This document shows, in pieces, positions 1,642-27,081 of a DNA stretch of 30,368 nucleotides (position 1 is its first letter; every line of letters begins with the position of its first letter). The position numbers were made by a program, and so were the translations under genes. The notes beneath the pieces are model-generated. The model was not told where the DNA came from, searched no databases, and saw only the letters and a list, made by a program, of their open reading frames with translations. Origin of the DNA: a virus; the IMG/VR virus record IMGVR_UViG_3300042883_000326, positions 1-30,368 of that record; one strand, written 5' to 3'.

Positions 1642-4600
1642 TTATTTATTTTTAAGTAATTCTATTTCTGCTTTTAATTCTTGTATTGCTTTGATATATA
1701 CGGCGTGTAACTGGTCATAATTAATACCCATTTTACCAGTTGAAGGAGTTGTAAATACGGCTTCTGGAATTATTTTTTGCATTTCTTGTGCAATATTTCC
1801 GTTTTGTCTGCCCTCACCATAATTTTTATAATCATTTACAAAATCAAACCAAACAGGATTCATTTTGACAATTTCATTTAAGCCATAGCCGATTGATTTA
1901 ATATTTTCTTTTACTGAAATATCTGAAACTGGTGCAGATAATAAACCATTAGCATCTGCCAATACTGCTCTGCTTCCTGTTCCCGCTAAATTTGATAATG
2001 TAGCTGCACCTGTGGAGGCTATGGTTAATAAATCAGTTGATGTGCTAAAGTTCCTTATACTCATTGAAGCTGCACCGCTTGGAGTATATAGCGAGAAATA
2101 TCTTACATTCCCATCTCCAAATATTATGTTATGAGCGCCTCCGTTTTGAGCAAATAATACCCCAGTTGATACTGAATCTATTGCTCTACCTCCTGTATTA
2201 TTAAAAGTATTATTTCCGATTGTTGTTAGTGTTGTAAACCTACCAGTACCATTAACATCTAGCTTGTAACCTGCATCTGTTGTAGTGCCTATTAGTACGT
2301 TACCGCTGCTATTAATTCTAACTTTTATGTCTGAGCTATCCCAATTAGTTATTGTACTCCCAGCTGTTCCTGCATTTGCAACGTGAAATGAAATGCCCGA
2401 TTGCCCTGTATCAGCATTTATTCTAATTGCAGCTACGGCAGTTGCTGTTGTAATTCTTTTCCAAGCTCCATCGTAATATGCGTTATTTGAAAAAAGAGCT
2501 TGGATTCCAACAACATTTTGCAAAACCAAAGTATTTTTCAATTGCAAAGTTACTGAACTAGAATCGCTATTTACTGGACTTGCAGTTCCTATACCTACGT
2601 TACCGCCTAAACCATTTAATATTAAATTTTTATATCCTACTCCTTGTTGAACGGCTTGTATATAACCATGATTTTCAGTGTATTTATAACCTATTAATAG
2701 TTGTCTATTAGTATCGGTTAATGTTCTTATTTTTAATTGTTCGGTTGAATCGCTTGTTAAATCTATTGTTGTAGCACTTACACTACTAGAGAATGTAGCT
2801 GCACCTGTTGAGGCTATGGTTAATCCGTTTCCTGTGCTTCCGCTATATAGTTTTAAAGACCTAAAATTGCTATTTTGACCTATATAATATGCAGTTCCAT
2901 CTAAAAAGTGAAATCCGCTATAATTTGTATTATTTAAACTTAGATTAGCAGTTCCCTCTGTTGCATCTGATAATGTTCCAACTGTAAGTCTACCACTAAA
3001 CCTCCCCGTACCATTAACATCTAGCTTGTAACCTGCATCTGTGCTAGTATTTATTAGTACGTTACCGCCTGATGGAGCTAATGCAAGATTACCAAAAGCA
3101 GTTTCTCCACCAATTAAAACATCAATATATCCATAAGTATTACCTGTACTAGCTCCGAGATTTGCTCTTAAATATGTACCTGAACTCCCAACTACAAAAT
3201 CTGTTGTTGTTGTTCTTATAAAACCTTTAGCCGTCACACTACTAGAGAATGTAGCTGCACCTGTTGAGGCTATGGTTAATCTTGCAGTTCCATTATTAAA
3301 AGCTACTGAACCAGCTGCTGGATATTTAAATGTTAATTCTGTTGCTCCAGCGTTATACGTTTCAAAAGTGTTTGATGCAATTGACCCTGAAGCATTTGAT
3401 TGATATATACTATTTTGCCCTGTAATTAATCCACTAAACGTAGCTGCACCTGTGGCTAAAGTAATTGATAAATAAGGCGATGTTACTAAACTTCCAATTG
3501 TAAAAGTTGTAGATGTAGAGGCAATAGCTGAACCAACATTGTTTGAAGCATCGCTAGGTCTAAGCCATAAAGCTGAAATTCCATCATTTGCTGGTCTTGG
3601 GCCTATAACTGCACTAGTAAAATTTGAAAAAGTAAATTCTGTTGAGTTTACATACAAAGTATTTGAGTTCAATCTAGCACTAAACAAAGCATTACCAGCT
3701 GAATTAATCGTTAATCTAGCAGACGCTCCAGTTTGTAATATCAAACTACCAGCTGACTCGTAAACAAAAGTATTATCTGATGAACCCAATTTAAGTATTC
3801 CTGTAATTGTTGCACCTCCTGTAACTTGTAACTTATCGCTAGTAGCATTTGTTCGTGAACCTAAAAGCAAGTTACCGCCTAGCCATGTAGATGTAGTAGA
3901 AGCATTACCAATCCACGTTCTACTATTTTCGGTTGCTGACTCACCAACTGTATTATACCCAATAAAAATATTATTTAATCCAGTTGTGTTTGCATTCGTT
4001 CCGCCTGAGCCATAGCCTGCCTGATAACCAAATGCGGTATTTAAAGAGCCTGTTGTATTGGAAAACAAAGAATTGATACCAAATGCAGTATTAGAGAATA
4101 TTGCACCGCCGCCTCTACCAACAGTTAAATTATTTACTGTTAAATCACTATTAAAACTTTTAGCTCCTGCAATCGTTTGCGCTCCAGTGGTTATTACACC
4201 CCCAAAACTTGCATCAGCTGGTTGTAAACTTAAAAGGCTACCGACTATACTAGCTCCATTTGCATTTGGTGTTATACCAATAGCAGCTAAAGATAAAACG
4301 GTGTATTGTGGAATATTTAACGTATTACTTATAAATGTAGCTGCACCGCTTGACCCTGTTGTGGTTAATGTTATTGTGTTTTGCTTACTATTAAATGTAG
4401 TCCAATCCGTAGAGGATAAATACCCATTAATCGTAGATGTAGCAGCTGGAATAGAAATAGTGTTTAAAGTTCTAACTAAAGGAGATGAGAAAGTTAATAC
4501 ATTTTCTTTTCCATTAAACGTACTCCAATTAGCTGAACTTAACGCCCCTCTATTTGTAGCACTTGCAGTTGGTAAATTAAAAGTATGGGTATCTAAAGTA

Positions 4601-5982
4601 CTTGAAATATTAAAATCAGTCCCAGTCGTTCCAGTCGCAAAATATTGAGTATTAGCCGTTAATCCGTTTAATGCTGCAATGCCACCTGCGAAAGTTGTAG
4701 TTACTAAACACAAAGTATTATCCTCAGTGTGCAAAGTGACTGTACGACCTCCTGAATTATCTACGATATACACCCTGAGAGCTAACCTATCGGTAATTAA
4801 TAAAACAGTTTCGGGTACTGCTAAAGACGTGATATATAAATCAGTGGTTGTTCCGCCTGTTATTTCTTCGGGAACTGTAACTGAACTAGCTATACTTGTA
4901 AAAGTCGTTCCATCGTATTTTAATAACTCGACATAAAATTTAGAATTGCCACCGCTTGAACTAATATTAAAGTACATCTCAAAATTCCACGCACCGCCCG
5001 GAATAAGCAATCTGTTTGGGTTACCCGCATCCGTTAAGAATTGAGCTATTAATCCATTACCAACTAAATTAAAGTCAGTACCTCCACCAATAATGGCACT
5101 GTTATCCATTTGCTTATAAGTAGCCACACTTGCAGCTATCGAGCCATTTAAATAATAATTAACATTAGCACCTCCGCTTGATGTCGATGGTATAGTCGCT
5201 AAAGTTCCATCTCCACGAATGTATTGAGATGCCGAACCGATTGCCGTAACCTCTAAAGTACCCGAGCTTGTAATTGGTGAATTAGCAACGCTAAAAGCAA
5301 CTGGCATCGTTAAACCAACCGATGTTACCGAACCAACCCCTGCACCTATATCTGCTAAAACCTCCGCACCTGTACGGTATTTAACAACTCCGCCCTCAGA
5401 AACTAAAAATTTATCTGTATCAGCTAAAGCGTTTTGAATGTTAGCGATTGTTAATCTAAAATTAGTATCTATTCTTAACGCTTCTGTGTTGTTTACTCTT
5501 ATTATAAAGTCATTGTTTATTGTCGAACCTATATAAGCATCATTATCTACGCCCGGATTAATTATCCCGAAACTTGCATAACTTGAAGTTCCATCTGTTA
5601 AGTGTATAACATTACCGATTTCCTCAAGAATAGAATCACCGACCGCGCCCGAACTTGTAAACTTTGCAATATTGCCAGTCGTGCCAGAAATGCTTGAGCT
5701 TGATGCGCCACCTATATCGGTTAATACCTCGGAAGCTGTACGATATGCAACGGAATTATCTGCTTTTAAGCTTAGAAATTTTGTAGCTGCTTCTAAGTCT
5801 GTTAATGCTGAAAGTATTAGCGTTCCATCAATTTCGATATCGGTAGAAGAAAGTTGCAAAGGTATTTCGTTTCCAAATCCATCTGTAATTCTTTTCTTAA
5901 CGCCTGTGATTGTATTATTGTCGGTTACCTTTAAAAGTGAATCGTAGGTTTCCGATATTAATTCGCCTGTAAGTGTAGCCAT
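1642..5982 (-). CDS. Tail fibre/tailspike with C-terminal peptidase S74 intramolecular chaperone
   Basis: At 1446 residues this is the largest gene here. The N-terminal part (about 1-120) is the likely virion-attachment region. The long middle is low-complexity, rich in Ser, Thr, Gly, Ala and Asn, with many copies of units like LTIASTGAATFSSSV and GTTTDAGYKLDVNGTGRF, as in trimeric beta-fibres. From about residue 1353 the sequence SDISVKENI begins an S74 (endosialidase-type) chaperone of about 94 residues, ending in a coiled coil. Ser1353 and Lys1358 keep the S-x4-K spacing of the known self-cleavage dyad, so the chaperone is probably cut off after trimer folding. The receptor or glycan bound cannot be told. 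The internal DNA repeats make this gene prone to recombination. Confidence 0.9.
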   Translation of the reverse strand: MATLTGELISETYDSLLKVTDNNTITGVKKRITDGFGNEIPLQLSSTDIEIDGTLILSALTDLEAATKFLSLKADNSVAYRTASEVLTDIGGASSSSISGTTGNIAKFTSSGAVGDSILEEIGNVIHLTDGTSSYASFGIINPGVDNDAYIGSTINNDFIIRVNNTEALRIDTNFRLTIANIQNALADTDKFLVSEGGVVKYRTGAEVLADIGAGVGSVTSVGLTMPVAFSVANSPITSSGTLEVTAIGSASQYIRGDGTLATIPSTSSGGANVNYYLNGSIAASVATYKQMDNSAIIGGGTDFNLVGNGLIAQFLTDAGNPNRLLIPGGAWNFEMYFNISSSGGNSKFYVELLKYDGTTFTSIASSVTVPEEITGGTTTDLYITSLAVPETVLLITDRLALRVYIVDNSGGRTVTLHTEDNTLCLVTTTFAGGIAALNGLTANTQYFATGTTGTDFNISSTLDTHTFNLPTASATNRGALSSANWSTFNGKENVLTFSSPLVRTLNTISIPAATSTINGYLSSTDWTTFNSKQNTITLTTTGSSGAATFISNTLNIPQYTVLSLAAIGITPNANGASIVGSLLSLQPADASFGGVITTGAQTIAGAKSFNSDLTVNNLTVGRGGGAIFSNTAFGINSLFSNTTGSLNTAFGYQAGYGSGGTNANTTGLNNIFIGYNTVGESATENSRTWIGNASTTSTWLGGNLLLGSRTNATSDKLQVTGGATITGILKLGSSDNTFVYESAGSLILQTGASARLTINSAGNALFSARLNSNTLYVNSTEFTFSNFTSAVIGPRPANDGISALWLRPSDASNNVGSAIASTSTTFTIGSLVTSPYLSITLATGAATFSGLITGQNSIYQSNASGSIASNTFETYNAGATELTFKYPAAGSVAFNNGTARLTIASTGAATFSSSVTAKGFIRTTTTDFVVGSSGTYLRANLGASTGNTYGYIDVLIGGETAFGNLALAPSGGNVLINTSTDAGYKLDVNGTGRFSGRLTVGTLSDATEGTANLSLNNTNYSGFHFLDGTAYYIGQNSNFRSLKLYSGSTGNGLTIASTGAATFSSSVSATTIDLTSDSTEQLKIRTLTDTNRQLLIGYKYTENHGYIQAVQQGVGYKNLILNGLGGNVGIGTASPVNSDSSSVTLQLKNTLVLQNVVGIQALFSNNAYYDGAWKRITTATAVAAIRINADTGQSGISFHVANAGTAGSTITNWDSSDIKVRINSSGNVLIGTTTDAGYKLDVNGTGRFTTLTTIGNNTFNNTGGRAIDSVSTGVLFAQNGGAHNIIFGDGNVRYFSLYTPSGAASMSIRNFSTSTDLLTIASTGAATLSNLAGTGSRAVLADANGLLSAPVSDISVKENIKSIGYGLNEIVKMNPVWFDFVNDYKNYGEGRQNGNIAQEMQKIIPEAVFTTPSTGKMGINYDQLHAVYIKAIQELKAEIELLKNK
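2246..2280. repeat. 35-nt direct repeat within fibre gene (copy 1 of 2)
   Basis: Identical to 3008-3042 by direct reading. It encodes part of the repeated unit DAGYKLDVNGTG. The two copies lie 762 bp apart in the same orientation and the same reading frame. Confidence 0.9.
2780..2825. repeat. 46-nt direct repeat within fibre gene (copy 1 of 2)
   Basis: Identical to 3236-3281 by direct reading; a third, imperfect copy of the core lies near 1997-2030. It encodes LTIASTGAATFSSSV. Copies are 456 bp apart, a multiple of three, so recombination between them would delete 152 residues and keep the frame. Confidence 0.9.
3008..3042. repeat. 35-nt direct repeat within fibre gene (copy 2 of 2)
   Basis: Second copy of 2246-2280, spacing 762 bp, also a multiple of three. 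Confidence 0.9.
3236..3281. repeat. 46-nt direct repeat within fibre gene (copy 2 of 2)
   Basis: Second copy of 2780-2825, in frame with it. Confidence 0.9.
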
Positions 5983-6342
5983 TTATTTGTATGTTATAAA
6001 GTCCTCTGATTGTCCGTTATATTCAGTGAAAACAAAAGCTTCACCAACTAATTTCATTTTACCGATTTCTAATTGTTTTTTTATTTCTGGTTCTTCTTGA
6101 AATTCAAAAACTTGATATGTCCAAAAACCTTCCGTTGCGTTTAAAAAATAATTATTTACGTTTATCTCAAATTCTGAATAACGCTCAATGTATAAACTTT
6201 CATTCAATGCTTCAAAGATAACGATTTCATTTGTAATATCATTAACAAATTCAAACACGTAAATAGGTGATTCTAAACTTATTTTTTCTAAGCTTAAAAC
6301 CAAATCTTTTACTGTTCCTTTTTCAAAAAGTATCATAATCAT
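5983..6342 (-). CDS. Fibre-associated phage protein, unknown function
   Basis: A 119-residue protein directly upstream of the fibre gene, ending one base before it, so the two are almost certainly co-transcribed. It opens with two in-frame ATGs (MIMI), either of which could serve. It is acidic, without membrane segments, and rich in aromatic residues in short beta-like stretches (PIYVFEFVNDITNEIVIF, GFWTYQVFEF). I know small proteins of this pattern next to fibres in Bacteroidota phages, but not their function. A role in linking or assembling the fibre is inferred from position only. The gene begins right beside the noncoding control region at 6343-6682. Confidence 0.75.
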   Translation of the reverse strand: MIMILFEKGTVKDLVLSLEKISLESPIYVFEFVNDITNEIVIFEALNESLYIERYSEFEINVNNYFLNATEGFWTYQVFEFQEEPEIKKQLEIGKMKLVGEAFVFTEYNGQSEDFITYK

Positions 6343-6380
6343 AAATATAATTTTTAGACGTAAAAAACACTATATATATT

Positions 6381-6445
6381 ATTTACTTTACTTTACTTTA
6401 CTTTACAAGCGTTACGAACACATTCCGAACGCGTTACATTTTTTG
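6381..6445. repeat. Imperfect 65-bp duplicate of replisome-organiser gene segment
   Basis: Ungapped alignment with 24403-24467 on the same strand gives about 55 of 65 identical bases by hand count. It includes TTTAC units and the elements GTTACGAAC and GCGTTACATTTT. Read on the minus strand it would encode NVTRSECVRNACKVK-stop-SKVN against NVTHSENVRNTPKVKKSKVN in the real gene, so it is a noncoding relic or a reused DNA element. Confidence 0.85.
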
Positions 6446-6511
6446 CAATAGTTTAAATATCAATAAGTTATGAGATTATTTTCTTAGTTTTTTTTTGAAA
6501 AACCTCCAACG

Positions 6512-6532
6512 TTTCACTAAAGTTTAGTGAAA
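6512..6532. repeat. Perfect inverted repeat, 10-bp arms, 1-nt centre
   Basis: Left arm TTTCACTAAA, centre G, right arm TTTAGTGAAA. The 1-nt centre makes it a protein-binding dyad (operator-like) rather than a transcription terminator. It overlaps the first iteron by four bases and lies 79 bp upstream of promoter A. Confidence 0.85.
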
Positions 6533-6565
6533 GTATCATGAAACTATGATGAAAGTATCATGAAA
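6529..6565. repeat. Two 15-nt iterons at 22-bp pitch
   Basis: GAAAGTATCATGAAA occurs at 6529-6543 and again at 6551-6565. The 22-bp period is two DNA helix turns, so bound proteins would sit on one face. The 7-nt spacer CTATGAT also makes ATCAT/ATGAT inverted pairs with both iterons. Confidence 0.85.
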
Positions 6566-6610
6566 ACATAACTAAAAAACACAAATTTAATGTTTAATAT
6601 TATTATACAT

Positions 6611-6656
6611 TATGACAATTTTATGACAATTAAATACAATATTACTTTTACATTTG
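6611..6656 (+). promoter_or_regulatory. Promoter A: double TATGACAATT + 17 nt + TACATTTG
   Basis: Repeats at 6611-6620 and 6622-6631 (11-bp pitch), 17-nt spacer, then TACATTTG at 6649-6656, which fits the Bacteroidota -7 consensus TANNTTTG. The same layout with identical spacing occurs at 17159-17204 and 27036-27081. It drives the plus-strand operon starting at 6683 through a 26-nt A-rich leader. Confidence 0.75.
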
Positions 6657-6682
6657 ATTCATAAACAAAAACAAAAAACGAC

Positions 6683-6838
6683 ATGAAAAATTACACAATC
6701 GCATTTATGGACAATGATTATAATGACCTTATAATTAAGAAAGTTCAATTCAATAATTTAAAAGAAGTCAAAGCTTTTGCTAAAGAAATTTTAGCGAACC
6801 TTTGCGATAATGACATCACTAACTTTAGAATTTACTAA
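6683..6838 (+). CDS. Small unknown protein, first gene of plus-strand operon
   Basis: A 51-residue ORF starting at the first ATG after promoter A. It encodes MKNYTIAFMDNDYNDLI followed by a likely helix (NNLKEVKAFAKEILANL). No membrane segment or known motif. The leader ends AAAAACGACATG, nearly the same as before the helicase (24152) and DnaA-like (25360) genes, which supports this start. The stop is one base before the next ATG. The function is unknown; small proteins in a separate early-type operon are often host-takeover or anti-defence factors, but nothing here shows that. Confidence 0.75.
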   Translation: MKNYTIAFMDNDYNDLIIKKVQFNNLKEVKAFAKEILANLCDNDITNFRIY

Positions 6839-6839
6839 C

Positions 6840-6959
6840 ATGGAAATATTAGCTTTTATTTTTTGCGCAGTACCTATTTTATTTGTACTTTTATTCGCAA
6901 CCGCAGTTCACTATTTTATGGAAACACTTAAAAAACACGACAATGAGAAATCTATTTGA
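6840..6959 (+). CDS. Small single-pass membrane protein
   Basis: A 39-residue ORF, second in the plus-strand operon. Residues about 3-25 (ILAFIFCAVPILFVLLFATAV) form one strong transmembrane segment; the tail HYFMETLKKHDNEKSI is polar and probably cytoplasmic. It overlaps the next start by 17 nt. Function unknown: it could act at the host membrane (superinfection exclusion or signalling) or be a small regulator. It lies outside the lysis cassette. Confidence 0.65.
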   Translation: MEILAFIFCAVPILFVLLFATAVHYFMETLKKHDNEKSI

Positions 6960-7161
6960 AAGACTAAAGCCAGAGCATATTGAAAAGCTTAAAGAATCAC
7001 AAACTTTATACCCATCAACTATTCCAAACTTATTTTTGGAATTAGAATTGAATACTTTTTGGGCAGACTTGACTTATTCTTGTGTATTTACTTTACTAAG
7101 TTATTTAGATATTTACGATTATTCACCTTCTACAATAGAAAATTTATTTGATAATGACTAA
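6943..7161 (+). CDS. Unknown small acidic protein
   Basis: A 72-residue protein. I chose ATG 6943 because longer versions lack a good start and would cover the whole membrane-protein gene. It begins MRNLFERLKPEHIEKLKESQ and reads as a helical protein with acidic, aromatic-rich stretches (LELELNTFWADLTYS, LSYLDIYDYSPSTIENLF). No motif recognised. It overlaps the next gene by 8 nt, so all four genes of this operon are translationally packed. Confidence 0.75.
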   Translation: MRNLFERLKPEHIEKLKESQTLYPSTIPNLFLELELNTFWADLTYSCVFTLLSYLDIYDYSPSTIENLFDND

Positions 7162-7435
7162 ATTAATCGACAAAATAGAAAATATTTATTTAGATAAATT
7201 TTATGCACTACCAGAGTGCGAAATGAAAACTAAAGCTTTACACGCTTTAAATAATGAAACAAGTTTTGGGTGGTTAGGTGGCGATATAGCCGACTACCTT
7301 GAAGATAATTTACTAAGTGAAGAAGAACACCCTTTTATTTTAGACTTGCTTAAAACGTACGACAATCGTTCTAGTGGCTCAAGTCTTTGCAATGGTGAAG
7401 GTGGTATAAACATAAAAAGTGGGTGGGGTTTATAA
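7154..7435 (+). CDS. Unknown small protein, last gene of plus-strand operon
   Basis: A 93-residue protein from ATG 7154; a TTG six bases upstream is less likely. It begins MTKLIDKIENIYLDKFYALPECEMK and has a helical body (GDIADYLEDNLLSEEEHPFILDLLKTY), with a flexible Gly/Ser-rich end. No known family recognised. Its stop codon lies in the loop of the terminator hairpin at 7420-7445, so the gene and the end of the transcript coincide. Confidence 0.75.
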   Translation: MTKLIDKIENIYLDKFYALPECEMKTKALHALNNETSFGWLGGDIADYLEDNLLSEEEHPFILDLLKTYDNRSSGSSLCNGEGGINIKSGWGL

Positions 7436-7445
7436 TTCCCACCCA
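7420..7445. terminator. Bidirectional terminator between convergent operons
   Basis: TGGGTGGG (7420-7427) pairs with CCCACCCA (7438-7445) around a 10-nt loop that contains the TAA stop of the last plus-strand gene. TTTCTTATTT follows on the plus strand. On the minus strand the stem is followed by CTTTTTATG. It lies between the plus operon and the minus-strand virion genes. Confidence 0.8.
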
Positions 7446-7453
7446 TTTCTTAT

Positions 7454-10215: not shown

Positions 10216-11931
10216 TTAAATTGTTGCAGCTGCCTTTATTTTGTTAATTCTATCTTGTGAATCTGTGATGTCTGTTTCTACGACGAAAGCTTTTATCGCT
10301 TGTTGGTTTTGTACGTTCACGTTTGCAGTTCCTAATGATTGAGTTTGTGTCACGTTAATACCTGATTGAATAGGTGCTTGAGCTGAAGCAGTGCTAAAGC
10401 TTTGTGGACTTCCACCACCCGGAATAGAACCACCACCCCCACCGCCCGGCACTTTCACAGACATAATACTTTTGACCGCCTTGAATCCTGTAACGGAAGC
10501 AGCTAAGACCGCTGGAATAGCAGCAGGGAATCCTAATTTAACACCCGCAGAAATACCTAAGTACGTATTAATCAAAGCTTGTGCAACTGCTAAAGCCTTA
10601 CCAGCTGCCGTTTCCTTACCAGCTAAGTCCGCTAATTGTCCAGCCGTACTTGACACCGCTGTTAAAAGTTCAATCTCAGCTTGTGAAGCTCTAGTTTTTA
10701 TTTCTAAATCTGTTTTTGCATTTTCTTGAAACTTAGCATAGGTTTGTGCGTTAATAGATACCGCCTTTGCTTGTGTTGATAAATCAAGTCCTATTTTCTT
10801 TTCAGATGAAGCCTTTAAAAAAGCATCGTTTTCATTATCTAATTCTTTAATTAATCCTAAACGCTTTGCTTCTTTGTCTTTTATTTCTTGTTGTTCTTTC
10901 TCATAAGCAGCGACCCTAAGACCACCAATTCTAAGAAGCTCGGCTTCGTCTTTTGCTTTCTTATCCGCAATTTCCTTTTCTCTAATTGCTTTTCTATCAG
11001 CGACCCTTTTTTCCTCTTCAGTTTTTAGCCTTGCGGTTTCTTCTGCATCAATTACTTTCTTTTGATTTTTTAAATCTTCAAAGTTTTTTAAATCTTCGCC
11101 ACGCAATCCCTTTTCTGATTTGTACTTTGCTCTTAATACGTTTAAATCATTATCTGCTAATTGTTTAGATAGATTTGCGATTTCAGATTCTTTGCCACCT
11201 TGAGCTTTTAATAAATCAATACGCCTTTTAATTGCTTCGTTAGCTGTTTTATTACTCCCTGCTAATTTATCATAAGCACGTGACGCTTCACTTGTAGCAC
11301 CTACAAAATCGGTTACTTGCTCAACTAGTTTACCGATAAATTCACCAACTTTTGCAAGTCCTGGAATTAAATTTAATACTACTTTTTTAACGGTATCAAA
11401 ATTAGCTATCAATAAACCAATAGCCACAACGGCAGCACCTATTCCAGTGGCTATAATTGCACCCTTTAAGGTGGTGAACGCAGTGATTACATTCTTTTTA
11501 ATTACAACCGCTAAGTTAGTGAAGGCGTCTTTTGATTCTAAAACACTATTTAAGCCTTCAGATAATGCCAAAGCACTTTGCACCTTTAGTAATTGCTTTT
11601 CAAGCTCAGCGCTTTCAGTACCGAATAAACCTATTGCACCCTGAACACCTGCAAAACCACCCGCAACGCCTTGCAAAGTTTGCGAAAACGCTTTAAATTT
11701 AGCATCTGGATTTAAGGCATCGACTCTATCTTTGAAATCCCCGACTTCATCCCTTAGATTTGCAACCTTTTGCTGTGCTTCGATTGCTTCTTTCGAGGTA
11801 TCGCCAAACTTTCTAGATAGATTTAAAGCTTCCTGTGTGGCTTCCCTTAATTCGGTTTTTATAGACTTAACAGCCTTTTCGGTTTGGCTTGTGTCGGTTG
11901 TTATCTTAAACGCTACTGGTTCTATTGCCAT
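10216..11931 (-). CDS. Tail tape measure protein
   Basis: A 571-residue protein with the classic layout. It has an N-terminal coiled coil (TEKAVKSIKTELREATQEAL onward), a hydrophobic segment near residues 145-190 (ITAFTTLKGAIIATGIGAAV, GLLIANF), a long Lys/Glu/Ala-rich helical middle, a second hydrophobic Ala/Gly-rich region (AVAQALINTYLGISAGVKLG) and a Gly/Ser/Gln-rich C-terminus. Tape measures set tail length and are ejected to help DNA cross the envelope. At this length the tail would be fairly short, roughly 85 nm if 0.15 nm per residue applies. It is unusual that this gene follows the two large tail-tip proteins and precedes the head genes. Confidence 0.85.
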   Translation of the reverse strand: MAIEPVAFKITTDTSQTEKAVKSIKTELREATQEALNLSRKFGDTSKEAIEAQQKVANLRDEVGDFKDRVDALNPDAKFKAFSQTLQGVAGGFAGVQGAIGLFGTESAELEKQLLKVQSALALSEGLNSVLESKDAFTNLAVVIKKNVITAFTTLKGAIIATGIGAAVVAIGLLIANFDTVKKVVLNLIPGLAKVGEFIGKLVEQVTDFVGATSEASRAYDKLAGSNKTANEAIKRRIDLLKAQGGKESEIANLSKQLADNDLNVLRAKYKSEKGLRGEDLKNFEDLKNQKKVIDAEETARLKTEEEKRVADRKAIREKEIADKKAKDEAELLRIGGLRVAAYEKEQQEIKDKEAKRLGLIKELDNENDAFLKASSEKKIGLDLSTQAKAVSINAQTYAKFQENAKTDLEIKTRASQAEIELLTAVSSTAGQLADLAGKETAAGKALAVAQALINTYLGISAGVKLGFPAAIPAVLAASVTGFKAVKSIMSVKVPGGGGGGSIPGGGSPQSFSTASAQAPIQSGINVTQTQSLGTANVNVQNQQAIKAFVVETDITDSQDRINKIKAAATI

Positions 11932-17158: not shown

Positions 17159-17204
17159 CAAAGATAATGCAAAGCACCTATTCAATTGTCATAGAATTGT
17201 CATA
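17159..17204 (-). promoter_or_regulatory. Promoter B: double TATGACAATT + 17 nt + TATCTTTG
   Basis: On the minus strand TATGACAATT lies at 17204-17195 and 17193-17184 (11-bp pitch), then 17 nt, then TATCTTTG at 17166-17159. Both decamers are perfect. Same architecture as promoters A and C. Positioned to drive 17138 and probably the virion genes downstream, starting inside the gap after the large terminase. Confidence 0.75.
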
Positions 17205-23162: not shown

Positions 23163-24152
23163 TTAAAAATCAAAGTCTTTACCAAATGTACTACTTAAAA
23201 CGGATATATTGCCCGGCTCTTTATTTAATTTCTCTTTAGCTTCGTATTCAAGACCAAAGTAAATCACGCCCTCGATTTCTTCATAAAAGCGATTTTTCTT
23301 CCAATCCCAAAATAGTTTGCACATTCCTAGTTTTGCCGAACCTTTAGGCTTTGCCTTTGCGATAATAACGTGAGTTTCATTTTCTTTGTAAGGTTGCCCA
23401 TCTTTATCGTTAAACCCAAATGGAGGTCGCCACAAGATTATAAAAGCCATTGCTTTACGGAAGAATGATTGACCCCCTGCGGATTGTCTAGGATGCGGAG
23501 GTGGATAATAAGTCACACCGTTTTCTGTAATCGGTTGCTGGTCTTGTGGGTGCATACAAATAAAGATATGCTTTTCTTCTTTTTTTGCGTAACGTCTAAG
23601 CTTACCGACTGCGTCCTCGATATATAAGTCTTGACGACTGCCAAACTCTGCCATGTTATGCTTAATTTCGTTGTAAGGGTCAAACAAAATATTGTCAATC
23701 TTGATACGATTTTCAGCTTCTAAGATTTTAACCTGACTTATAATGTCATCAAAGCTAAATGAATTTTCGTCGTTATCTACGATATAAAATTTATCACTTA
23801 AAAAAGCAATAGCGTTGTAAATTTCTGATTCACTACAAGCGTTCACGTCACTTGCAAAGAATGGTTTTCTAATGTATTTACTTATAAGCTCTTTCGCTAG
23901 GTCTTTATAATCCCCCGTTTCTGGTGAAAATATTACGTGCTTTTCGTTGTGCTTAATTGAAAGGTTTAAAAGTATCTCTAAGTTAAATTCTGTTTTGCCC
24001 GAGTGTGGTGATGCAAGTATAAAAGTCATTGACCCTTTTTTCTTTGTGTATAAAGCATCTAAAGATTTAAAACCAACGTATTGACCTCGTTGTATTCCTG
24101 ACTTGTGAAAGTCTAAGATTTCGTTTTCAAATTGAATTAAGTTTTTTATCAT
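23163..24152 (-). CDS. DnaB-type replicative helicase-like ATPase
   Basis: A 329-residue RecA-fold ATPase without the DnaB N-terminal domain. Walker A is ASPHSGKT (47-54), the same form as DnaB's A-x-P-x-x-GKT. A catalytic-Glu candidate lies in FSPETG (E78), Walker B in DNILFDPYNE (D158), and HPQDQ and RQSAGGQSFFRKA (about 224-236) follow the helicase layout. It probably unwinds DNA at the phage fork, loaded by the DUF4373 protein encoded just upstream. The leader contains two copies of ACAAACGAC before the ATG. Confidence 0.8.
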   Translation of the reverse strand: MIKNLIQFENEILDFHKSGIQRGQYVGFKSLDALYTKKKGSMTFILASPHSGKTEFNLEILLNLSIKHNEKHVIFSPETGDYKDLAKELISKYIRKPFFASDVNACSESEIYNAIAFLSDKFYIVDNDENSFSFDDIISQVKILEAENRIKIDNILFDPYNEIKHNMAEFGSRQDLYIEDAVGKLRRYAKKEEKHIFICMHPQDQQPITENGVTYYPPPHPRQSAGGQSFFRKAMAFIILWRPPFGFNDKDGQPYKENETHVIIAKAKPKGSAKLGMCKLFWDWKKNRFYEEIEGVIYFGLEYEAKEKLNKEPGNISVLSSTFGKDFDF

Positions 24153-24177: not shown

Positions 24178-24804
24178 TCAATTAACTGGTATATTAAAAC
24201 TTAAAGTATTATTTGTGTTTATTTTATTTTCATCTCTAAACCATACGCCCCTCATTTTTTGTTTCCAGTTTAAAACCTTCTTACCATTGCTATCGACCCA
24301 ACCAGATTCATTGTAATATTTATAAGCATTCTTTGCAGCATCGGCTTTAAATCCATTCTCAAGAAAGTACTTAATAACTTCATCAATATTTGGCATATAT
24401 ATATTTACTTTACTTTTCTTTACTTTAGGAGTGTTACGAACGTTTTCTGAATGCGTTACATTTTCTGTAACTACTTGTTTTTCACGCCATTGTGAAATTC
24501 TTTTCGCGTTTTTTTCTTTTTTTATCTGGTACTTTTGTGCAAAGTTTAGTAATTGTTTGTTGAAAGTTTCACCATTGTTTGACGAAATCAAGTCTATTTC
24601 TTCCATAAAATCCCAGCACTTTTCAAGTCTTTTACCTACTTTACATTGATGTTTTAAGACGTTGGTTTTGATAGGTTTTTCTTGACGTGCCATCTTTTCA
24701 ATCAAAGTATAGAACAATCCAAGACCTTCATATCCAAAGTTTATAAATAGCTCCGAGATTTTTTCATCTTCAAAACTTGCGGTATCATGTAGGAAGTATT
24801 TCAT
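24178..24804 (-). CDS. DUF4373 (Lin1244/Lin1753-like) replisome organiser
   Basis: A 208-residue protein. The N-terminal winged-helix-like domain is typical: MKYFLHDTASFEDEKI, then GYEGLGLFYTLIEKMA. It ends with a DnaT/DnaD-like module (DAAKNAYKYYNESGWVDSNG, VLNWKQKMRGVWF). The family is thought to bind the phage origin and load the helicase, encoded next. The linker between the modules (residues 113-134, ENVTHSENVRNTPKVKKSKV) is encoded by DNA that recurs, imperfectly, in the noncoding region at 6381-6445. As in lambda O, an origin inside this gene is therefore possible. Confidence 0.85.
   Translation of the reverse strand: MKYFLHDTASFEDEKISELFINFGYEGLGLFYTLIEKMARQEKPIKTNVLKHQCKVGKRLEKCWDFMEEIDLISSNNGETFNKQLLNFAQKYQIKKEKNAKRISQWREKQVVTENVTHSENVRNTPKVKKSKVNIYMPNIDEVIKYFLENGFKADAAKNAYKYYNESGWVDSNGKKVLNWKQKMRGVWFRDENKINTNNTLSFNIPVN
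24403..24467. repeat. Genic partner of the 65-bp repeat at 6381-6445
   Basis: About 55 of 65 bases match 6381-6445 without gaps. Within the gene it covers residues 113-134 of the DUF4373 protein. It includes the direct elements GTTACGAAC and GCGTTACATTTT. Confidence 0.85.
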
Positions 24805-24805
24805 T

Positions 24806-25360
24806 TTAATAGTCGATTTTTTGAATTACAAATCTAGACAATTTTACTTGAGGTTTTCTCGTTGCGTTTAGAGTTTCTTTATTTAAGCTATAAAGATAAA
24901 ATTTAACAGCTCCTTTAGTTTTGTTTAAAATATCTGCGTAATAACTTACCGAGAAATCATTTGATAAGTTTGCTTTTATAAAGTCTTTGTCATCTTCTGA
25001 TAAGATACCTTTTGAAATAGGTCTGTCGCGCGTTACGGTGCGCTGTACGCCGTTAATTATATCGACCATAAAGTCATGCCTATATTTCATTCTTTTATCG
25101 GTACGAAGGCTGTAAAAGACTTTGTCAATTTGATAAATTATAGAGCTGTGATTTTGTAGTTTAAATTCTTTTGCGATTTGCACCATAGTCATTTTGTAAT
25201 GGTTGTACAAAAAGTATGAAACAAGTTGCCTTGCTTTTGTAACTTCACCAATACGTCTGTTAGTGGTGGTTAATAATTGATAAATATCATTTGAACTAAG
25301 CTTCTTAGATTCGTAAAGTTCTGATGCGTAATAGCATAATTTTAAAGTGTCTTGATTCAT
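24806..25360 (-). CDS. DnaA domain IV-like DNA-binding protein without ATPase
   Basis: A 184-residue protein. Residues about 43-81 (ARQLVSYFLYNHYKMTMVQI, then AKEFKLQNHSSIIYQIDKV) match the shape of DnaA domain IV, where NHSSIIYQI corresponds to the DnaA signature RDHTTVLHA. A second HTH-like region (SVSYYADILNKTKGAVKFYL) lies near residues 137-156. No Walker motifs are present, so it is not an initiator ATPase. It may bind DnaA boxes, compete with host DnaA or mark the phage origin. A terminator hairpin ends 12 bases before its ATG. Confidence 0.75.
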   Translation of the reverse strand: MNQDTLKLCYYASELYESKKLSSNDIYQLLTTTNRRIGEVTKARQLVSYFLYNHYKMTMVQIAKEFKLQNHSSIIYQIDKVFYSLRTDKRMKYRHDFMVDIINGVQRTVTRDRPISKGILSEDDKDFIKANLSNDFSVSYYADILNKTKGAVKFYLYSLNKETLNATRKPQVKLSRFVIQKIDY

Positions 25361-27035: not shown

Positions 27036-27081
27036 CAAATATAAGGTCATTGTACAAAAGAATTGTCATAGAAATGTCATA
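27036..27081 (-). promoter_or_regulatory. Promoter C: TATGACATTT/TATGACAATT + 17 nt + TATATTTG
   Basis: Repeats at 27081-27072 (one mismatch) and 27070-27061, 11-bp pitch, 17-nt spacer, then TATATTTG at 27043-27036. Same design as promoters A and B. It starts right behind the lysis-cassette terminator and drives the early region beginning at 26995. Confidence 0.75.

Follow-up and report, generated by a model that had tools for sequence, protein, structure and literature searches.

Phage P4 carries two separate regions, ori1 and crr, with sites of one initiator on the phage genome, and P1 and F have extra initiator sites (incA and incC, respectively) outside the origin. To our knowledge, incA and incC lack an unwinding array, and we know of no distant second noncoding origin copy in phage lambda. 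In lambdoid and Stx phages, an origin with iterons and a neighbouring AT-rich tract lies in the middle of the initiator gene O (PMC7466680), and the part of that paper citing Dodson 1986 gives two lambda iterons plus the AT tract as enough for unwinding. Supplying extra lambda origins in trans prevents initiation from proceeding normally and stops lambda from growing (PMC4488673).

Here we compare these systems with a noncoding junction in a virus genome (the window: the whole 30,368-bp stretch analysed, G000, an IMG/VR virus record), in which almost every gene points leftward. We read positions 6372-6566 as an origin module that is noncoding and matched to the initiator, and that most likely serves as a second origin (probability about 0.6).

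Layout of the junction and its repeats

The longest gap between ORFs of annotated size in the window lies at 6343-6682, between 5983-6342 on the minus strand and 6683-6838 on the plus strand. The first-pass annotation had described stacked repeats in the only long intergenic region, and all the features it listed were present (Table 1). Its iterons with a 22-bp period were recovered as two 22-bp spacings; one separates the GTTAC boxes, while the other (GAAAGTAT at 6529 and 6551) is really part of an 11-bp tandem array of three units. These GAAASTAT-N3 units are exact in the window, G002, G006, and G007, and decayed in G001. The 11-bp core of the palindrome, CTAAAGTTTAG, also occurs in the initiator genes of G006, G007, G018, and G029. 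In 5,000 shuffles of the 340-bp block, which preserved base composition only and not dinucleotides, the 5-mer array, the tandem GAAASTAT, and the tandem TATGACAATT had zero occurrences, and the rate for GTTAC-N17-GTTAC was 0.0002. When windows were ranked by weakness of the duplex, junctions took ranks 1-7 of about 3,100, a weak duplex being expected of any AT-rich noncoding stretch.

Table 1. Positions of the junction features, the initiator locus, and neighbouring genes in the window
Feature	Position	Strand	Remarks
Divergent noncoding region	6343..6682		o5983 (-) on one side, small-gene cassette (+) on the other
Constrained noncoding element	6343..6566		192/224 identical to G006, 189/224 to G007
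AT-rich tract with 5x TTTAC (GTAAA) array	6372..6406		Array 6382-6406, 100% perfect; candidate unwinding element
Two GTTAC boxes	6411-6415, 6433-6437	+	22 bp spacing; candidate initiator sites
21-bp palindrome, TTTCACTAAA-G-TTTAGTGAAA	6512..6532		10-nt arms fully complementary, single free centre base
11-bp tandem array, GAAASTAT-N3	6529..6566	+	Three units
Tandem TTATGACAATT x2	6610..6631	+	Common to sites at 17204(-) and 27081(-)
TACATTTG	about 6649..6656	+	Bacteroidota-type -7 box for cassette
Cassette of three small ORFs	6683..7435	+	6683-6838, 6943-7161, 7154-7435; function unassigned; antisense to late genes
Inverted repeat	7412..7453		Probable bidirectional terminator separating cassette from tail-tube-like gene
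DnaB-like helicase	23163..24152	-	Downstream of initiator
Lin1244_N/DUF4373 initiator-like protein	24178..24804	-	208 aa; N-domain, disordered linker 113-132, C-domain
In-gene copy of element	24395..24470	-	Array 24404-24427; GTTAC boxes from 24433 and 24455; synonymous constraint
DnaA-domain-IV-like protein	24806..25360	-	Upstream of initiator

A matching copy lies within the initiator gene

The best self-match of the block pairs 6372-6448 (minus strand) with 24395-24470, about 18 kb away (84% over 77 bp, E 2e-18), and homology to the initiator genes of relatives extends to 6527-6543. The junction copy is colinear with initiator coding sequence, with its frame interrupted by stops and no open frame remaining. 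A replication-gene-derived segment had been noticed previously; what was missed is that the gene segment itself looks like an origin, so the block is a second copy. Searches of named phages with the block DNA, and of named plasmids with the initiator N-domain, gave no match.

Lin1244_N (PF14297) was the only relevant Pfam family for the initiator, scoring 24.7 bits against a curated cut-off of 25 over the first 42 positions only, while relatives of a second initiator class (class II, below) scored 53.6 and 50.5 bits, and a class II relative is annotated in PHROGs as a replication initiation protein (E 1e-20). The protein probably belongs in or near the Lin1244_N/DUF4373 family. A PDB fold search with its AlphaFold2 model gave no significant match; in that model (pLDDT 70, modest confidence) residues 113-132 are disordered, exactly at the element.

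The DNA encoding this linker is built like a lambda-type in-gene origin, with a 5-mer AT-rich array and GTTAC boxes at a spacing of 22 bp. Among 19 diverged relatives picked by protein similarity, synonymous identity in the linker was 1.2-1.3 of expectation, versus 0.7-0.9 over most of residues 1-60. The codon for K129 was AAG in 17/17 and Val116 was always GTA, and the NGT-AAC bases (residues 123-124) were kept in 18 of 19 while residue 123 was R, C, S, or H. As the GTAAC/GTTAC boxes are 22 bp apart, they fall in different reading frames, and protein selection cannot account for both. By these comparisons, the in-gene element is held by selection acting on DNA.

Relatives retain the N-domain and linker but have a very different C-domain. 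In the initiator genes of L023-L037 and L137, unrelated C-domains begin at the 5-mer array, which therefore marks a recombination joint; this pattern of domain swaps resembles the modularity of lambda O.

Conservation of the noncoding copy

We assessed constraint on the junction against fourfold-degenerate sites. Identity of 6343-6566 between the window and its diverged sister G006 was 86%, and 84% to a second diverged sister, G007, compared with only 48% at fourfold-degenerate sites (23 genes; p below 1e-27), implying that about 224 bp of noncoding DNA are under strong selection. The constraint ends near 6566, with identity over 6567-6600 dropping to 14/34 (G006) and 9/34 (G007). The iterons and palindrome were thus conserved in related phages, the comparison proposed in the first-pass annotation as a check, and its suggestion of an origin was not refuted. 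Colinearity with the gene and in-frame stops could also mark a decayed pseudogene fragment of the initiator gene left by recombination; as the sole explanation this is refuted by the excess over fourfold-site identity, and with conservation far above that of neutral sites and a repeat class that tracks the initiator's, a relic is scarcely credible. We rejected ongoing gene conversion between the two loci as the cause of conservation, given that junction copies share bases absent from gene copies (TTTTTT versus TTTTC after box 2).

Selection might instead act on a structured RNA, or on an antisense RNA pairing with the initiator mRNA. The minus strand of the block folds somewhat better than shuffles (z -2.67), and a plus-strand transcript would be antisense to the initiator mRNA. 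However, an Rfam search of the block gave no match, no promoter was found placed for plus-strand transcription through it, and conservation falls on the boxes and arrays, making an RNA function very improbable.

Both copies were present in five genomes of the window's own initiator class (class I). The second copy was absent from 13 other contigs with the same initiator N-domain, all outside the window's clade, which had the in-gene copy only; in most remoter structural relatives the junction was a gap of only about 100 bp. A collection scan for the array plus boxes returned 91 stretches. Among 80 pattern matches examined on viral contigs, 70 were in an open frame and 10 were noncoding, and all ten of the latter lay beside o5983 in phages of the window's kind; conservation of the boxes among scan matches is by construction and was not counted as evidence. 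L147, with a longer junction, had no matching second copy on its short contig. Self-repeats in G022 were considered as a third case and dropped, being three short matches in noncoding DNA with no link to an initiator gene seen.

Matched replacement in sister phages

Two remoter relatives with a different repeat block at the same junction led to G035, G036, and G044 (class II), which are complete or near-complete, share the window's gene order, and have terL about 75% and major capsid 75-82% identical. Their initiator has a different N-domain and a C-domain of the same kind. The class II in-gene element consists of GTGTTSAACAA iterons and an AAAAG array, and at the tube-side junction of these phages lie GTGTTCAACAA iterons together with an AAAAG array and a stretch of TATATA. 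Searches put the class II match between junction and in-gene segment at 84%-87%, and local alignment put it at 72%-87% within each genome. Junction and gene agreed in class in 8/8 genomes having both loci, and the junction-by-gene alignment matrix fell into class blocks with only short alignments across classes. The o5983-side flank ATATATAGTGTTTTT was common to class I and G036, which suggests that the core was exchanged in situ. In TerL and capsid trees, classes I and II formed one clade apart from every relative without the copy; because these are two sister clades, one evolutionary event may account for the matched replacement.

Without a protein common to both, it is hard to see how two loci 18 kb apart would shift to one and the same new specificity, and use of both the junction and the gene copy seems to be what keeps them in step. 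Together with conservation, this replacement gives good support to two earlier suggestions, namely a replication-origin-like element at the junction and a DUF4373 protein in need of a DNA target. It is very probable that the junction block is a functional site matched to the initiator.

The same matched replacement would fit equally well a cis-accessory half of a bipartite replicator, as in P4 ori1/crr, or a titrating or handcuffing site like P1 incA and F incC, with the initiator binding the junction and forks starting only at the in-gene origin. Inhibition of normal initiation by extra lambda origins in trans also indicates that a spare copy can control initiation (PMC4488673). Yet the module is conserved in full, AT array included, and in 7/8 genomes the junction has longer perfect 5-mer runs than the gene. 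For titration, boxes alone would suffice, as for incA and incC, and iterons without an unwinding element would be expected, whereas the array is retained and regular at the junction. The longer runs fit an origin freed from codons and would be unneeded for mere titration; with the retained array they favour an origin, and we consider an accessory or titrating role unlikely, if the most serious competitor.

A probable origin module at the junction

Two copies of the element exist, with DNA-level selection on both, coding capacity lost at the junction, and class-matched replacement, in sister phages, together with the presumed DNA-binding domain of the initiator. Under the preferred reading of the junction as a second origin, the original copy would sit in the linker-coding part of 24178-24804, as lambda ori does in gene O. 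The initiator N-domain would bind the GTTAC boxes at both places, the adjacent 5-mer AT array would open, and the C-domain would recruit the DnaB-like helicase from the adjacent gene; the junction copy could thereby serve as a further origin, about 18 kb away from the in-gene one. We infer such binding, unwinding, helicase loading, and origin firing from the sequence; that the junction copy does fire is somewhat favoured. More tentatively, and at slightly less than even odds, this tailed-phage clade may run on two full origins, one in the initiator coding sequence and one noncoding in the late region, the remote copy being replaced along with the DNA-binding domain and the two-site module recombining or being reselected as a pair.

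A consistent skew change, another sign of an origin proposed beforehand, was not found. GC skew (cumulative and at fourfold sites) differed between the two arcs of the window (z 4.4, 1/31 rotations) but failed in G006, G035, G036, and G044, and was not used.

Flanking genes and host

A rightward TAnnTTTG box, in the cassette direction, was found in 8/8 junctions examined. With this box and a site in a divergent promoter region, a bound initiator could act as a transcription switch, activating either o5983 and the tail-fibre gene or the small cassette and so tying late expression to replication. Such a switch is improbable in that the junctions examined had no conserved leftward TAnnTTTG box, the constrained block stops about 83 bp before the cassette promoter box, and the conserved unwinding-type array would be left unexplained. 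Nothing in the analysis demonstrates the "master control locus" of the first-pass annotation; the flanking promoter serves three small genes.

At L213 (G003 contig, 11400-11603), a gene 38% identical to cassette gene 6943-7161 adjoins replication genes, and the junction cassette may therefore stem from the early region. The 11-bp tandem TTATGACAATT precedes three sets of small ORFs (6610-6631 on the plus strand, 17183-17204 and 27060-27081 on the minus strand), with a clear TAnnTTTG box at two. Two or three such sites occur in most class I genomes examined and none in G007; they resemble a small regulon of the phage that has an activator or operator of its own. The tail-fibre-like gene (1642-5982) contains internal direct repeats of 36-72 bp with 90%-94% identity at 1994-3281, where relatives differ strongly. 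Contigs of this phage kind can break at or next to the junction element, as at the L092 end (11153) and at both ends of G005, perhaps because the origin module is repeated, which would be an assembly hazard.

The initiator matched 68 Flavobacterium phage records, mostly via the C-domain, and distant N-domain relatives were found in Larkinella, Spirosoma, and a Hymenobacter bin; two further matches were in bins labelled as other groups and may be misplaced phage contigs. Together with the TAnnTTTG boxes, these matches suggest that the host is probably a member of the Bacteroidota.

Comparison with known systems

Phage origins are seldom predictable from sequence. In this case, frozen linker codons and a noncoding copy that follows the initiator class provide two independent marks on the same about 80-160 bp. 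Origin function of Lin1244_N-type initiators, found in many phage contigs, can thereby be tested readily, and one may ask why a phage with a 30-kb genome retains a matched second copy. An origin inside an initiator gene is already known from lambdoid phages (PMC7466680); the Lin1244_N-type case and the class-following noncoding copy appear to be new, as we found no report in open papers of an origin in or near a Lin1244_N/DUF4373-type gene, nor of a noncoding origin copy following initiator class.

As in lambda, the origin-like repeats of the window lie inside the initiator gene, between two protein domains, and DNA-level selection maintains at least two iterons next to an AT-rich tract. Unlike lambda, the boxes are 22 bp apart, the array is built of 5-mers, and a second, noncoding copy lies far away; by Pfam (Lin1244_N) the initiator is not homologous to O, and it would work like the lambda type rather than be a member of it. 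Extra candidate initiator sites outside the in-gene origin recall incA and incC, from which the window differs in retaining the array at the junction. Similar to P4, the window phage has two separate regions with candidate sites of one initiator, whereas here the initiator gene contains one of the regions, and each of them resembles a complete origin module.
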